A stretch of 28,574 bases of DNA. It comes from a virus. The notes beneath the pieces are model-generated. The model was not told the DNA's origin and did no database searches. It saw only the letters and a program-made list of their open reading frames with translations. The stretch spans positions 1 through 28,574 of IMG/VR virus record IMGVR_UViG_3300044630_000365. One strand, 5' to 3'. The stretch's first letter is position 1; each line of letters opens with the position of its first letter. Positions 930 through 9,415 of the stretch are shown here, in pieces. The position numbers and the translations under genes are program-made.

Positions 930-1666
930 GTGGTTTGCAATGGTTCCGACTATATCACCGAATAGTTGATGACGAAAAGCTGCGCCTGTTAGCTTTTGAG
1001 GATCGCTGGCACTTTGTTGCCTTATGCTGCCTAAAGGCTGATGGCCTTCTGGACACGCCAAATGACAATCTTCGATCGCGTAAAATTGCCGTCAAGTTAG
1101 GCGTGCAGTTGCGTGAATTAGATGAGATTGGAAGGCGCTTGCAAGAGGTCAATTTGGTTGATGAAAACCTGTCACCAGTTGCTTGGGATGAGCTACAATA
1201 TAAAAGCGACAACAGCACAAACCGTGTAAAAAAATACAGGGAAAAACAGCAGCATAACGCTATGAAACGGGAGCGAAACGTTTCAGTAACGGGCCAAGAG
1301 ACAGATACAGATACAGATACAGAAGTTAATACTAACGTATTAACAGCAAAACGCAGAAGCGTTTCCGCTGCTAAGCCTGATGGATTTTGTGACCAGCTTT
1401 GGAAGGATTGGAAGAACCATCGCAAAGCAGCTTTCACCGAAACCGCATTGAAGGGCATTGAGCGTGAAGCTGCGCTGGCGGGATGGACGCTGGAGGCTGC
1501 AATTACGGAAGCCATTGAACGAGGATGGCAGGGATTTAAATCAGATTGGGTAGAGGGAAAGAAGAATGGTACATCAAATCGGACAACTGGTCAGCCTAGA
1601 AACCAAAACGGCTTTGCCGCAGCACTTCGATACGTCGCGGATGGACGATCTGATGACCCGTTCTGA
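926..1666 (+). CDS. Phage replication initiator / primosomal-type protein
   Basis: This 246-residue protein is organised like phage O/DnaT-type replication proteins. An N-terminal winged-helix-like region covers about residues 1-95. A basic linker with a TDTDTDTE run follows near 126-135. The C-terminal region (about 150-200) resembles DnaT-like primosomal segments, with WKDWKNHRKAAFTETALKGI followed by REAALAGWTLEAAI and ERGWQGFKSDW. It probably binds the phage origin and helps load the host replicative helicase. The linker DNA contains a repeat array (1264-1365), as in lambdoid O genes where the origin lies inside the initiator gene. The next probable replication gene overlaps its 3' end. 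Confidence 0.75.
   Translation: MSGLQWFRLYHRIVDDEKLRLLAFEDRWHFVALCCLKADGLLDTPNDNLRSRKIAVKLGVQLRELDEIGRRLQEVNLVDENLSPVAWDELQYKSDNSTNRVKKYREKQQHNAMKRERNVSVTGQETDTDTDTEVNTNVLTAKRRSVSAAKPDGFCDQLWKDWKNHRKAAFTETALKGIEREAALAGWTLEAAITEAIERGWQGFKSDWVEGKKNGTSNRTTGQPRNQNGFAAALRYVADGRSDDPF
1264..1365 (+). repeat. Origin-like array of direct and inverted repeats inside the initiator gene
   Basis: The stretch holds GAAACG at 1264-1269 and 1275-1280, with its complement CGTTTC at 1279-1284 and 1360-1365. The two central copies form the palindrome GAAACGTTTC. Between them lie three and two-thirds copies of the hexamer ACAGAT (1301-1322), then an AT-rich 8-bp inverted repeat, GTTAATAC / GTATTAAC, with a 4-base spacer (1325-1344), then AAACGC / GCGTTT with a 4-base spacer (1349-1364). 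Iterons plus an AT-rich segment inside the initiator gene is the layout of lambda-type origins. The function is inferred. Confidence 0.5.
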
Positions 1667-3596: not shown

Positions 3597-3892
3597 TGTT
3601 GCACGCAAACCTGATCCGCCAATGGGCGCAAGACCGCAACCTGATTGAAGGTAGCACCGTGCAATCTCAGTTCGTCAAGCTGATTGAAGAAATAGGTGAG
3701 CTGGCTGAAGCAATCGCCAAGGGCAAAGATGAGCAATTCATGGACAGCATTGGAGATGCCTTTGTCGTGCTTACCATCCTGGCAGCGCAAAAGGATTTAG
3801 AGATTGAAGAATGCGTCGTTCACGCATGGCATGAAATCAAAGACCGCAAGGGCAGGATGGAAAATGGAATCTTCATAAAGGATGATTCATGA
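3596..3892 (+). CDS. MazG-like nucleotide pyrophosphohydrolase
   Basis: This 98-residue protein matches the all-alpha MazG-like NTP pyrophosphohydrolase fold. It has LIEEIGELAEAIAKGK at residues 29-44 with the metal-binding EExxE (31-35). DSIGDAFVVLTILA follows at 50-63, with Asp 54 in the second metal motif, and then WHEIKDRKGRM. The usual ExxD motif reads SIGD here, with Asp 50 just ahead, a variation I believe also occurs in phage members. The enzyme hydrolyses NTPs or dNTPs to monophosphates. In phages it may adjust nucleotide pools, remove modified nucleotides or lower alarmone levels. It is coupled on both sides by short overlaps. Confidence 0.85.
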   Translation: MLHANLIRQWAQDRNLIEGSTVQSQFVKLIEEIGELAEAIAKGKDEQFMDSIGDAFVVLTILAAQKDLEIEECVVHAWHEIKDRKGRMENGIFIKDDS

Positions 3893-4122
3893 CACCCAGA
3901 GAACAGAATTTAGCTGACATTGAAGTTATCGCCAAAGAGCATCGCTTCACTTTAGAAGATATTTTAGGCAAAAATAGGTTTGGGCCATTAGTCAAGGTAA
4001 GACGCAAATGCGTTGTTATGCTGCGTGAGAAGGGCTATTCCACTACAGAAATTGGACGAATAATGTGCCGGGATCACAGCAGTATCTGCAATAGTCTTAA
4101 AAAAAGCAGGGCAGATGGATGA
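3889..4122 (+). CDS. Free-standing DnaA domain IV-like DNA-binding protein
   Basis: The 77-residue product resembles the C-terminal DNA-binding domain of the bacterial initiator DnaA. KVRRKCVVMLREKGYSTTEI is followed by GRIMCRDHSSICNSLKK, where RDHSSI matches the DHTTV signature that reads the DnaA box. The ATPase domain is absent and the preceding 35 residues are a short helical leader (LADIEVIAKEHRFTLEDILG). It could bind DnaA boxes to regulate host or phage replication or transcription. It begins in an ATGA overlap with the MazG gene and ends in one with the next, which suits an early takeover operon. Confidence 0.8.
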   Translation: MTPREQNLADIEVIAKEHRFTLEDILGKNRFGPLVKVRRKCVVMLREKGYSTTEIGRIMCRDHSSICNSLKKSRADG

Positions 4123-4370
4123 TGGATAATTTTATTTTAGATGTAACCACAACAGACGAGTGGGAGTTTCACTGGCTGGGAATGCCTGAATTTCAGCAGT
4201 TGCGTAAAAAACCAGTGTCTCAAATAACTGTCAGGTTTGAAACGCAAGAAGATATGGACAATTTTGCAGAATTAATTGGTCAAAAACTTACTTTAAAAAC
4301 GAAGTCAATTTGGCATCCGCACAGGCCCCACAAACTTGCTAACAAGAAGGTGTGGCGCGATGGCGAATAG
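4119..4370 (+). CDS. Small partner of TAGT-type phage glycosyltransferase
   Basis: An 83-residue protein starting at ATG 4119 (in overlap) or the adjacent ATG 4122. It has the pattern LGMPEFQQLRKKPVSQITVR, then FETQEDMDNFAELIGQKLT and KTKSIWHP. I recall this kind of small protein (IGQ...T.KTKSIW.P) recurring in phages next to ParB-like or glycosyltransferase genes, but its biochemical role is unknown to me. Here the glycosyltransferase follows with an 11-base overlap. The DNA is more AT-rich than that of the flanking genes, suggesting the pair moved together. Confidence 0.6.
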   Translation: MMDNFILDVTTTDEWEFHWLGMPEFQQLRKKPVSQITVRFETQEDMDNFAELIGQKLTLKTKSIWHPHRPHKLANKKVWRDGE

Positions 4371-5220
4371 GTATCCGATCTATATCGTTTCTAAGGGTAG
4401 GTGGTTAAATGCACTGACCCATAAGGCGCTCAAGAAAATGGGTGTTGAGCATTCTATGATTGTTGAGGAGCATGAGCGCGATGCGTATGCAAATAACGTA
4501 TCGTGCGACCTAATTACGCTGCCCCAGTGCTATTTGCTGGAGTATGATACTTGCGACAATCTGGGATTATCAAAATCAGTCGGCCCCGGTGCGGCTAGAA
4601 ACTTTGCATGGGATTTAGCTTGTTCTGCTGGTTTTGCTCGACATTGGGTAATGGACGATAACTTAGACGCATTCCATTGGCTAAACCGTAATGAAAAGTT
4701 TGAAGTCGAGTGCGATGCCACCATCAGAGCAATGGAAGACTTTGTGGATCGCTATAGCAACGTGGCTATTGCTGGCCCAAATTATTATTCCTTTGCTAAA
4801 AAGACAGACAATTTACCAGCCTTTGTAAAAAACACCCGTATCTACTCATGCCTTCTGATTGATAATCAAATACCGTATAGGTGGAGAGGCAGATACAATG
4901 AGGACACAGATTTAAGTTTGCGAGCGTTAAAGGATGGTCTTTGCACGATTCAGTTTAACGCATTTCTTTGTGGTAAAATTACAACCCAAAGGATGAGTGG
5001 TGGTAATACAAAAGAGTTTTATAAGCATGAAGGGACGAAGCCAAAATCTAAAATGTTGGCAGACCTACATCCTGATGTAGCAAAAATTGTGTGGCGATTT
5101 AACCGCTGGCATCATCACGTTGACTACAAGCCATTTAAAAAAAACAAACTCAAATTAATTGCCGATATATCTAAATTACAAAAAATAAATAATTATGGAA
5201 TGGAGCCACATGATGCGTAA
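4360..5220 (+). CDS. TET-associated-type (TAGT) glycosyltransferase, possible DNA modifier
   Basis: A 286-residue protein from ATG 4360, with AAGAAGG at 4344-4350. It has a GT-A-like layout: PIYIVSKGR at 6-14, GPGAARN at 75-81, a metal-binding MDDN at 98-101 and a later NEDTDLSLRAL block around 180-190. A His/Trp-rich segment (FNRWHHHVDYKPFKKN) lies near the end. This is the pattern of TAGT proteins, which were described computationally as glycosyltransferases linked to TET/JBP oxygenases and modified phage DNA bases. No TET/JBP, methylase or hydroxymethylase gene is in this window, so the acceptor base is unknown. The gene is AT-rich and may be a recent acquisition. A glycan-decorating role on protein or surface is the main alternative. 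Confidence 0.7.
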   Translation: MANRYPIYIVSKGRWLNALTHKALKKMGVEHSMIVEEHERDAYANNVSCDLITLPQCYLLEYDTCDNLGLSKSVGPGAARNFAWDLACSAGFARHWVMDDNLDAFHWLNRNEKFEVECDATIRAMEDFVDRYSNVAIAGPNYYSFAKKTDNLPAFVKNTRIYSCLLIDNQIPYRWRGRYNEDTDLSLRALKDGLCTIQFNAFLCGKITTQRMSGGNTKEFYKHEGTKPKSKMLADLHPDVAKIVWRFNRWHHHVDYKPFKKNKLKLIADISKLQKINNYGMEPHDA

Positions 5221-7342: not shown

Positions 7343-9415
7343 ATGGCTCGACTGAATAAAGAACAAAGGTTCCAGAACATCCATCAACAGGCGTTGACAG
7401 AGTTCGATCGTGTTCAATCCTCAGTCCGTGATGAGCGCCTGCAGTGCCTTCAGGACAGACGCTTCTATTCAATCGCTGGAGCGCAGTGGGAAGGCCCACT
7501 TGGTGAGCAATACGAAAACAAACCGCGCTTTGAGGTAAACAAGATTCACCTTAGCGTCATTCGTATCATCAACGAATATCGTAACAACCGCATCGCTGTA
7601 GACTTTGTAAGCAAAGATGGCGAAGCAAACGACAAGCTGACTGAGGTCTGCAATGGTCTCTATCGTGCAGATGAACGGGACAGCGGCGCAGAAGAAGCAT
7701 ACGACAACGCTTTTGAAGAAGCTGTAGGCGGTGGCTATGGCGCTTGGCGTTTACGCACTGCATACGAAGATGATGAGAACGACGAGGACGAACGCCAGCG
7801 CATCCGCATAGAACCAATCTATGACGCTGACAGCTCTGTGTTCTTCGACCTTGACGCAAAGCGCCAGGACAAAGCCGACGCAAAGTATTGCTTCGTTCTG
7901 TATTCCATGACCTATGACGCTTACAAAGCTGAATGGAATGATGACCCAACTACATGGCCTAAAGAAGTTCACCAGTATGAGTTCGACTGGGATACGCCTG
8001 ACGTTGTGTTCGTCGCTGAATACTACCGCGTTGAAGAAACCCGCGAGACTGTTCGCATCTTCCTGACAATCCAAGGCGAAGAAGAACGCTACACGCAAGC
8101 AGACTTTGACGCTGACGAAACGCTGGAAGAAACACTAGCCGCTGTTGGCACTGTTGAGGTACGCCAGAAGCGCGTGAAGCGTAAGCGCGTCCACAAGTAC
8201 ATCATGAGCGGTGGCGGCATCCTTGACGATCAAGGCTACATCGCTGGCAAGAACATCCCTATCGTTCCTGTTTACGGCAAGCGTTGGTTCGTCGATAACG
8301 TCGAGCGTTGCATGGGCCATGTGCGCCTAGCCAAAGACCCACAGCGCCTGAAGAATATGCAGCTATCAAAGCTGGGTGAAATCAGTGCGCTTTCGTCCAT
8401 TGAAAAGCCAATCCTGCTACCTGAACAAGTCTCAGGCCATCAAGTCATGTGGGCAGAGGACAACCTTCGGAACTATCCTTATCTGTTGGTCAACCCAATC
8501 ACAGGGCCAAACGGCGAGACTCAAGCCGCTGGCCCAGTTGCTTACACCAAGTCCGCAGCTATTCCACCAGCGATGGCAGCACTGCTTCAGATCACTGAAC
8601 AAGACATGGCTGAGATACTGGGTAACAACCAGCAAGCCGACAAGATGGTCAGCGGCATCAGCGGCAAAGCTGTAGAGCTAATCCAGACCCGCTTGGATAT
8701 GCAGACGTTCATCTACATGAGCAATATGGCCAAGTCTGTGCGTCGCTGCGGTGAGATATGGCTATCGATGGCCAAAGACATCTATGTTGAAGAAAAGCGC
8801 AAGATGAAGACAGTCGGCGCTATGGAGGAAGTTGGTTCGATTGAACTGATGAAGCCACAGATCGACGAAGAAACAGGCGAACTGATTTACGAGAACAACC
8901 TGGGCGATGCCTTGTTCGACGTTGCAGTAGACGTTGGCCCATCATCGAGCAGCCGCCGTGACGCTACAGTGCGTGCGCTTACTGGCATGATGCAAGTCAC
9001 AACCGATCCGACAACCCAACAGGTTCTGCAAGCTATGGCTATCATGAACATGGAAGGCGAAGGCATTGGCGACATCAAGGAATATTTCCGCAAGCAGCTA
9101 GTCCAGATGGGCGTTATGCAGCCAACGGAAGAAGAACAGCAGCAGATGATGGAAGCGCAAGCGAACGTGCAGCAAGATGCACAGACCACTTACTTGCTTG
9201 CTGAAGCCGCTAAGTCACAGGCTCAAGCTATCCAAGCACAAGCTAACACTGAATACACCTTGGCACGTTCGGAAGAAACGAAGGCCAAGACAGCAGAGAC
9301 TATCTCAAACATCGACATTGACCAGCGCAAGTCGGCAATTGAGACTGCTGAAAAGATTGGGGAAGCATTGCGACCCAGTATGAATGTGGTTCCACCCTCC
9401 ACACAATTAGGGTGA
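7343..9415 (+). CDS. Portal protein, P22 gp1-like
   Basis: A 690-residue protein starting at the ATG immediately after the terminase stop. The N-terminus (RFQNIHQQALTEFDRVQSSV, then RDERLQCLQDRRFYSIAGAQ and WEG) and the following PRFEVNKIHLSVIRIINEYR segment are typical of P22-type portals, whose usual length is about 725 residues. The C-terminal 100 residues are Gln/Ala-rich and helical (EEEQQQMMEAQANVQQDA, AKSQAQAIQAQANTEY), matching the portal barrel region. It forms the dodecameric DNA gate at one capsid vertex and binds terminase, then the gp4-like tail factor. It is followed by the scaffold gene. Confidence 0.92.
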   Translation: MARLNKEQRFQNIHQQALTEFDRVQSSVRDERLQCLQDRRFYSIAGAQWEGPLGEQYENKPRFEVNKIHLSVIRIINEYRNNRIAVDFVSKDGEANDKLTEVCNGLYRADERDSGAEEAYDNAFEEAVGGGYGAWRLRTAYEDDENDEDERQRIRIEPIYDADSSVFFDLDAKRQDKADAKYCFVLYSMTYDAYKAEWNDDPTTWPKEVHQYEFDWDTPDVVFVAEYYRVEETRETVRIFLTIQGEEERYTQADFDADETLEETLAAVGTVEVRQKRVKRKRVHKYIMSGGGILDDQGYIAGKNIPIVPVYGKRWFVDNVERCMGHVRLAKDPQRLKNMQLSKLGEISALSSIEKPILLPEQVSGHQVMWAEDNLRNYPYLLVNPITGPNGETQAAGPVAYTKSAAIPPAMAALLQITEQDMAEILGNNQQADKMVSGISGKAVELIQTRLDMQTFIYMSNMAKSVRRCGEIWLSMAKDIYVEEKRKMKTVGAMEEVGSIELMKPQIDEETGELIYENNLGDALFDVAVDVGPSSSSRRDATVRALTGMMQVTTDPTTQQVLQAMAIMNMEGEGIGDIKEYFRKQLVQMGVMQPTEEEQQQMMEAQANVQQDAQTTYLLAEAAKSQAQAIQAQANTEYTLARSEETKAKTAETISNIDIDQRKSAIETAEKIGEALRPSMNVVPPSTQLG

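Follow-up and report, generated by a model that had tools for sequence, protein, structure and literature searches.

An origin-like repeat array under DNA-level selection in the linker codons of a phage replication initiator gene

Results

The initiator gene and its neighbours

The DNA analysed here (the window) is a 28,574-base phage record in which a Pfam-type family search found a P22-like portal and a large terminase. The features discussed below are collected in Table 1. The product of the replication initiator gene matched phrog_678 (E 7.7e-19), the primosomal family phrog_6451 (2.7e-9) and phrog_3926 (1.9e-8), and the matches to phrog_678 and phrog_3926 place it among the O-like initiators. 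Among named phages, the most similar product, at 48% identity, was one that is annotated in Acinetobacter phage Silvergun as "replication initiation protein". The AlphaFold2 model has folded parts on either side of a low-confidence, disordered stretch (residues 114-146, nt 1265-1363), which is the same stretch that a preliminary description of this DNA had picked out for its repeats (1264-1365, hereafter the element).

In a structure search, the model of the N-terminal domain reached Z 6.7-6.8 with 4pt7, 4pql and 5kbj (81 residues aligned for 4pt7 and 5kbj) and 5.4 with DnaD 2vn2. We take 4pt7 and 5kbj to be RepA_N proteins. Matches of Z about 7 are middling, and unrelated winged helices score similarly. 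Foldseek returned nothing under E 0.001, the initiator sequence had no match in the PDB, and no Pfam RepA_N match was obtained for the initiator at E 0.01.

The product of the downstream overlapping gene had no family match in Pfam or PHROG. Just upstream of the initiator gene lies a DUF1064 gene (330-674), resembling Holliday junction resolvases in PHROG. A 77-aa gene at 3889-4122 resembles the helix-turn-helix of DnaA domain IV (Pfam Bac_DnaA_C; phrog_27829); DnaA-box-like sites are not enriched in the window. A TET-associated glycosyltransferase gene at 4336-5220 (Pfam TAGT, E 3e-43; PHROG glucosyl-HMC glucosyltransferase) suggests that the phage has modified DNA bases.

Table 1. Features of the initiator gene and the element in the window
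Feature	Start	End	Strand	Remarks
Replication initiator gene, host of the element	926	1666	+	246 aa; phrog_678, replication initiation O-like
Winged-helix N-terminal domain codons (residues 1-92)	926	1201	+	AlphaFold2 model and PDB winged-helix matches; presumed iteron binder
Iteron 1, GAAACGGGAGC	1264	1274	+	11-bp spacing; relatives have upstream copies at -11, -22
Iteron 2, GAAACGTTTCA	1275	1285	+	11-bp spacing
Iteron 3, GTAACGGGCCA	1286	1296	+	11-bp spacing
Palindromic core CGTTTCAGTAACG (pattern CGTYWCNGWRACG)	1279	1291	.	sole match in window; covarying arms in 77 clusters
Hexamer tract (ACAGAT)3ACAGAA, ACAGATACAGATACAGATACAGAA	1301	1324	+	presumed unwinding/priming region; linker codon bias; common to many initiator families
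Hairpin GTTAATAC-TAAC-GTATTAAC	1325	1344	.	8-bp arms 1325-1332/1337-1344; bottom-strand loop GTTA; DNA fold z in text; loop class common to relatives
Second small hairpin AAACGC-AGAA-GCGTTT	1349	1364	.	arms 1349-1354/1359-1364; contains most of the fourth CGTTTC motif
Downstream gene overlapping the initiator gene	1566	2147	+	occupies the lambda P position; no family match

Eleven-bp iterons, a hexamer tract and hairpins

The preliminary description had read the element as an origin-like array built on four GAAACG/CGTTTC motifs. All four are present (GAAACG at 1264-1269 and 1275-1280, CGTTTC at 1279-1284 and 1360-1365), two of them fused into a perfect 10-bp palindrome, GAAACGTTTC (1275-1284), but they are not the repeat unit. 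The half-sites GAAACG (1264), GAAACG (1275) and GTAACG (1286) follow each other in steps of exactly 11 bp and overlap the palindromic core, and the repeat unit is an 11-bp iteron, GWRACGNNNNN. The four motifs were rejected as a functional unit because the 11-bp unit fits and the last CGTTTC sits in the second hairpin. The other components, 3.7 tandem copies of ACAGAT, an AT-rich 8-bp inverted repeat and a further 6-bp inverted repeat, were found as described. The pattern of the palindromic core had no match in 100 shuffles of the window. A short spacer separates the palindrome from the hexamer tract. The stretch 1301-1344, with G+C at 13 of 44 bases (counted by eye), qualifies as an A+T-rich tract adjoining the iterons, its unwinding being inferred. 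Tandem iterons within the initiator gene are found both in the window and in relatives, without binding data.

The cluster had been presented as improbable by chance, which holds only mildly. The window contains 24 copies of GAAACG, against 15.0 +/- 3.8 expected from shuffles, and this count was reached in 2 of 100 window shuffles. When codons were shuffled with the protein fixed, 267 of 20,000 trials gave at least four GAAACG/CGTTTC motifs within the 102 bases, and 198 of 20,000 gave two steps of 11 bp from one G[AT]AACG site to the next. Since the cluster by itself is expected in about 1% of codon shuffles, it is the comparison with relatives that makes the case.

Silent sites of the element are conserved among close relatives

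A protein search gave 80 loci, among which L001-L020 are close relatives. In these 20 sequences, silent variation was found at 8 of 34 degenerate codons in the element and at 111 of 171 elsewhere (p 1.5e-5), "elsewhere" being the rest of the initiator gene ahead of its overlap with the next gene. Amino-acid variation, in contrast, was more frequent in the element (11/34 codons) than elsewhere (27/179). A sliding view of the relatives agreed in placing silent-site conservation at 1264-1365, and the unusual conservation of synonymous sites that had been put forward as a check was thus borne out. Silent variation is also low at the 3' end of the initiator gene, because the overlapping gene begins there. 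A second silent-site test over 14 pairs (48/282 vs 573/1782) agreed, but its loci were chosen by DNA pattern and we did not lean on it.

Other causes of silent-site conservation were considered and rejected. Recent exchange of the segment would lower silent and amino-acid change alike. As to a hidden overlapping gene, in none of the close relatives does another sense frame stay open across the element for more than 25 codons; as to a hidden antisense gene, the open antisense frame covers the gene far beyond the conserved part. Judged by comparison of sequences alone, the array is real, conserved and under selection at the DNA level.

The palindrome is maintained with 11-bp phasing in distant relatives

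We scored the palindrome in 44 genes (43 distant relatives found by protein, and the window). All 13 letters were matched in 32 genes and at least 12 in 41, while codon-shuffled genes had a mean best score of about 11. Relatives that keep the linker and lack the repeats, which would have counted against an origin, are therefore rare: only L050, L068 and L076 score 11. A scan with a 38-bit pattern (our own estimate) gave at least 119 matching stretches from viral contigs. A further 26 came from prokaryote genomes, including Pseudomonas, Luteimonas, Blastomonas, Novosphingobium, Rhodovulum and Nitrosospira records; one prokaryote match (L214) was dismissed as a chance match within a threonine-rich protein.

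In 77 cluster representatives, palindrome positions 4 and 10 were T-A in 69 and C-G in 8, and never mixed (p 5e-11); the search pattern permitted mixed pairs, so that their absence was not imposed. Positions 5 and 9 covary in part (p 0.001), and T-T mismatches are kept in 18 of the 77. Extra copies of the palindrome (score at least 10) occur at -11 in 41 of 76, at -22 in 12 and at -33 in 6. A step of 11 bp corresponds to roughly one turn of the helix and is not divisible by three, so that the reading frame shifts from one tandem iteron to the next, as in L041, where CGTTTCAGTAACG is translated R-F-S-N and the next copy N-V-S-V-T. The exact palindrome was present in 27 of 30 phage records: 23 had it at a single place, 3 had tandem copies spaced by multiples of 11 bp, and 1 had it at two places far apart; it was not found in the records of L047, L068 and L078. 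Selecting loci by DNA pattern favours conservation in the covariation, upstream-iteron and 14-pair silent-site tests, and does not affect the scoring of the 44 genes, the silent-site test in close relatives or the linker codon count given below.

Separately, initiators of the WFRMYxEFATDPKVQMLSE subfamily (L086, L088, L104, L138, L244-L251 and others) have another pair of iterons, also phased at 11 bp, which lies some 200 bp upstream among the codons of the winged helix.

Codon usage and reading frame of the linker

Could an acidic, threonine-rich linker be what is selected, with the DNA repeats a by-product of low complexity? The linker motif NVSVTxQETDTDTDTE is widely conserved, such linkers generally join domains, and TDTD is the longest sense frame at 97 of 100 loci with a hexamer tract. 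Codon choice speaks against this explanation. In the linkers of 36 protein-found relatives, threonine is encoded by ACA in 120 of 121 cases (70/366 elsewhere) and aspartate by GAT in 93 of 94 (300/622 elsewhere), in genes that span about 41 to 64% G+C; glutamate codons in these linkers showed no preference. Four of the 40 protein-found loci (L022, L062, L066 and L069) were excluded from this count, since no linker was recognised by regular expression.

The reading frame is not conserved either. The homologous initiator of L110 reads the element one frame over (...DETFQKRHQIQSTESE... in place of NVSETPPDTE), and in L111 stop codons lie inside the element and the reading frame terminates there. 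On the phage contig of L134, which has apparent terminase and portal genes (labelled by eye), the element is not part of any recognisable initiator. The hexamers are replaced by 5-nt ACAGA repeats in L249 and L251, and in L077 the repeat is read in an IQIQ frame. With these cases an explanation by protein alone fails, and with the 11-bp period and with silent sites conserved while amino-acid change is raised, we regard selection on the linker protein as very unlikely.

The element of L134 lies near 8,600 on the reverse strand and comprises two fused palindromes, hexamers and an inverted repeat; ARAGORN found no tRNA in this region. In three further initiators (L049, L061 and L065), which were outside the 40-locus list, an HNH-endonuclease-like domain (CxxC...DHKVP...C..CN, by eye) is inserted at the linker, beside the presumed origin, and in L049 an iteron-like palindrome (12/13) persists after the insert in another frame.

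The hairpin is kept by pairing and by loop type

The hairpin at 1325-1344 has a DNA fold z of -5.2 on the top strand and -6.7 on the bottom strand. Of 75 representatives, 16 had a perfect inverted repeat with arms of at least 8 on the downstream side of the element. At eight separate control offsets the count was 0 or 1 in about 73, and at a ninth, where the offset overlaps with the element, it was 5. Because the arm sequences are unrelated between relatives, it is the pairing itself that is kept. Among 94 elements there were 22 perfect hairpins with arms of at least 7 and 4-nt loops, and 17 of these 22 had a closing C-G and a loop T..C (0/3 in controls). With arms of at least 5, this special loop occurred in 21 of 61 hairpins and in 1 of 93 at control positions; in the repeat-found set, the element had 19 hairpins (6 with the special loop) and four control windows had 12 (none). 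Read on the bottom strand, the special loop is d(cGNNAg). The title of Nakano et al. (2002), on thermodynamically stable DNA tetraloops, is said to name d(cGNNAg) among four motifs. Our reading, which is not a result, is that the hairpin may act as single-stranded DNA on the bottom strand; the fold is computed and the function inferred.

The same observations bear on a role of the hairpin in the initiator mRNA, for example in translation or decay, that would drive the conservation. The transcript could fold like the DNA, and the arms pair in those 16 of 75 representatives despite unrelated sequences. On the other hand, the hairpin is not universal and is missing from most relatives, conservation extends to the iterons and hexamers, which are unpaired, and the palindrome has a centre of one base, unsuited to RNA, with its T-T mismatches kept. 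An RNA element as the cause is scarcely tenable.

The hexamer tract is common to initiator families with different iterons

A scan for (ACAGAT)4 found 100 further distinct loci. Thirty were drawn at random and 29 tested (L334, also drawn, is not counted): 24 (two only weakly) had matches to families of the replication initiation, primosomal or DnaD-like type, and the other 5 matched none of these. In the 58 bases upstream of 77 hexamer loci, identity was 0.43 at lag 11 and 0.36 at lag 22, over a background of about 0.26. When loci were grouped by N-domain, a family of 41 had 3.4 GWRACG-type and 0.3 CAACG/TGAAC-type sites per 70 nt, and a family of 21 had 0.4 and 3.6. Non-initiators or truncated loci were removed by eye (15 for the lag analysis, 16 for the grouping), as were duplicates and short flanks. 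Iteron type thus follows N-domain family, as expected if the N-domain binds the iterons, and the hexamer tract is common to both families. The iterons appear to go with the N-domain; binding is inferred from this association, to which shared descent also contributes.

The matching of iterons to the initiator's own N-domain also bears on whether the palindromes are an operator, bound by the initiator or another phage regulator for transcription and not for the start of replication. A core with dyad symmetry is what a dimeric regulator might recognise, and small helix-turn-helix proteins are among the products of the phage. An operator, however, would not account for a position in the middle of a gene, for the linked hexamer tract and hairpin, or for the fact that, of the 27 palindrome-bearing phage records, 23 have one site only. 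We consider it improbable.

Alternatively, the conserved DNA might have been retained at the domain boundary for its ability to promote the swapping of initiator domains. L044 does combine the linker and C-domain of the window with another N-domain, and many relatives have only the N-domain in common with the window. Exchange alone, however, predicts neither 11-bp phasing nor compensatory changes, nor hexamers in unrelated families, and it may itself be a consequence of an embedded origin. A recombination junction is thus given next to no weight.

In AH02 and PfAn1, two named phages, the initiator with the hexamer tract is followed by a gene annotated as helicase loader or replication protein P, which fits the mechanism proposed below. 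The hexamer-tract gene of Pseudomonas phage PfAn1 (L273; PV364321, 30452-31176) is itself unannotated, and its next gene is a putative replication protein P.

A related repeat, (ATAGAT)n, encoding IDIDID, stands at the linker position in many low-G+C Firmicutes-like initiators (L427-L471). The viral scan for (ATAGAT)4, which is confounded by base composition, gave 45 stretches, many in such initiators and others where a reading frame is short or absent. CTG is present in the complement of ACAGAT, and CTA in that of ATAGAT. As far as the available parts of PMC5429622 and PMC5204125 go, E. coli primase starts at CTG, and B. subtilis and S. aureus primases prefer CTA. Among 249 genomes from the phylum of a Bacillota-titled genome, 3 had (ACAGAT)n and 1 had (ATAGAT)n; for the phylum to which a Pseudomonas genome belongs, the counts were 4 and 1, again of 249. 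These counts are too few to decide on a host-matched primase switch and are not in its favour.

Discussion

The results establish conservation at the DNA level, compensation in the palindrome, 11-bp phasing, independence of reading frame, matching of iterons to N-domains and conservation of the hairpin in structure only. We propose, with good but not full confidence, that 1264-1344 is a replication origin of the phage, placed within the linker codons of its own initiator. The preliminary reading as an origin-like array inside the initiator gene is supported by this comparative evidence; no replication or binding data from the bench stand behind it, and origin activity, initiator binding and the role of the hairpin are inferred. 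The GC-skew comparison that had been suggested as a further check gave weak support: in all 8 records skew was higher on the right-hand side of the element, yet only 2 of the 8 had their cumulative minimum within 1.5 kb of it, and the comparison is confounded by gene direction.

In the proposed mechanism, the winged-helix N-terminal domain of the initiator would bind the 11-bp iterons, all on one face of the helix, and the complex would strain and open the adjoining A+T-rich (ACAGAT)n tract. The bottom strand of 1325-1344 is predicted to fold as a stable single-stranded DNA hairpin. The C-terminal domain may then recruit helicase loader and helicase, and primase would start synthesis, steps inferred by analogy with lambda O and pSK41 Rep. 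The linker in the protein would then be little more than a side effect of the DNA element that encodes it.

The plan itself, in which the origin lies within the initiator gene and between the codons of two exchangeable domains, is already known from lambda and pSK41. The comparison with lambdoid phages made in the preliminary description holds for this plan and not for the sequence. In gene O of lambda and its Stx phage relatives, iterons and an A+T-rich tract also lie in the middle of the initiator gene (plan as outlined in the accessible parts of PMC7466680 and PMC3349717), and a replication partner gene overlaps the initiator gene downstream. Unlike lambda, which has four 18-bp iterons, the window has 11-bp palindromic units, ACAGAT hexamers and a hairpin, and 18-19-bp imperfect inverted-repeat iterons of the lambda type were not found, the unit in the window and its relatives being 11 bp.

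In the RepA_N rep gene of the Staphylococcus plasmid pSK41, the portion of PMC5703833 available describes a winged-helix N-domain that binds Rep boxes central in rep, an origin that encodes the linker, a C-domain that contacts primase, and a hybrid, pPR9, that swaps N-domain and origin together. The window likewise has a linker, encoded by the presumed origin, between exchangeable domains (disordered residues 114-146, with domain exchange at the element). It differs in being a phage and not a plasmid, in its boxes and in lacking a Pfam RepA_N match.

The bacterial unwinding module of DnaA-boxes, spacer and DnaA-trios is similar in having duplex sites, a short spacer and short tandem repeats (PMC8287927, in the part available). 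In contrast, the element has no DnaA-boxes, its triplets lack a regular central adenine and its initiator is not DnaA. The DnaA-box TTATNCACA, with up to one mismatch, does not occur in 1264-1365 (16 in the window, 25 expected), and when the complement of ACAGAT is read 3'-5' (by eye), no more than every second triplet has A at its centre, short of what DnaA-trios require; an origin of this type was therefore rejected. A lambda-like origin with iterons in the replication gene has been proposed for Francisella phage KIRK (PMC7924643); that proposal concerns one phage only and, in the part of the source available, comes without comparative evidence. At the level of titles and abstracts, we found no description of 11-bp palindromic iterons, an ACAGAT tract crossing families or a hairpin with a DNA-type loop, and do not claim that none is in print.

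A wider reading, which we hold only tentatively, is that the TDTDTD linker of many phage initiator families may be the translation of a shared origin cassette, with iterons linked to the N-domain, a constant (ACAGAT)n tract read by a host factor and an optional single-stranded DNA hairpin. The cassette itself is well supported. That the hexamer tract is also an array of primase start sites, besides an unwinding region, with (ATAGAT)n as its Firmicutes-like counterpart, is speculative.

If the origin reading is true, the origins of many uncultured phages could be located from sequence alone, at the domain boundary of the initiator, and a DNA element would account for a protein feature of low complexity. 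Acinetobacter phage Silvergun and Pseudomonas phages AH02 and PfAn1 are named phages that could serve as experimental material. The system would also provide a test case for the co-evolution of iteron type and N-domain alongside a constant unwinding tract.
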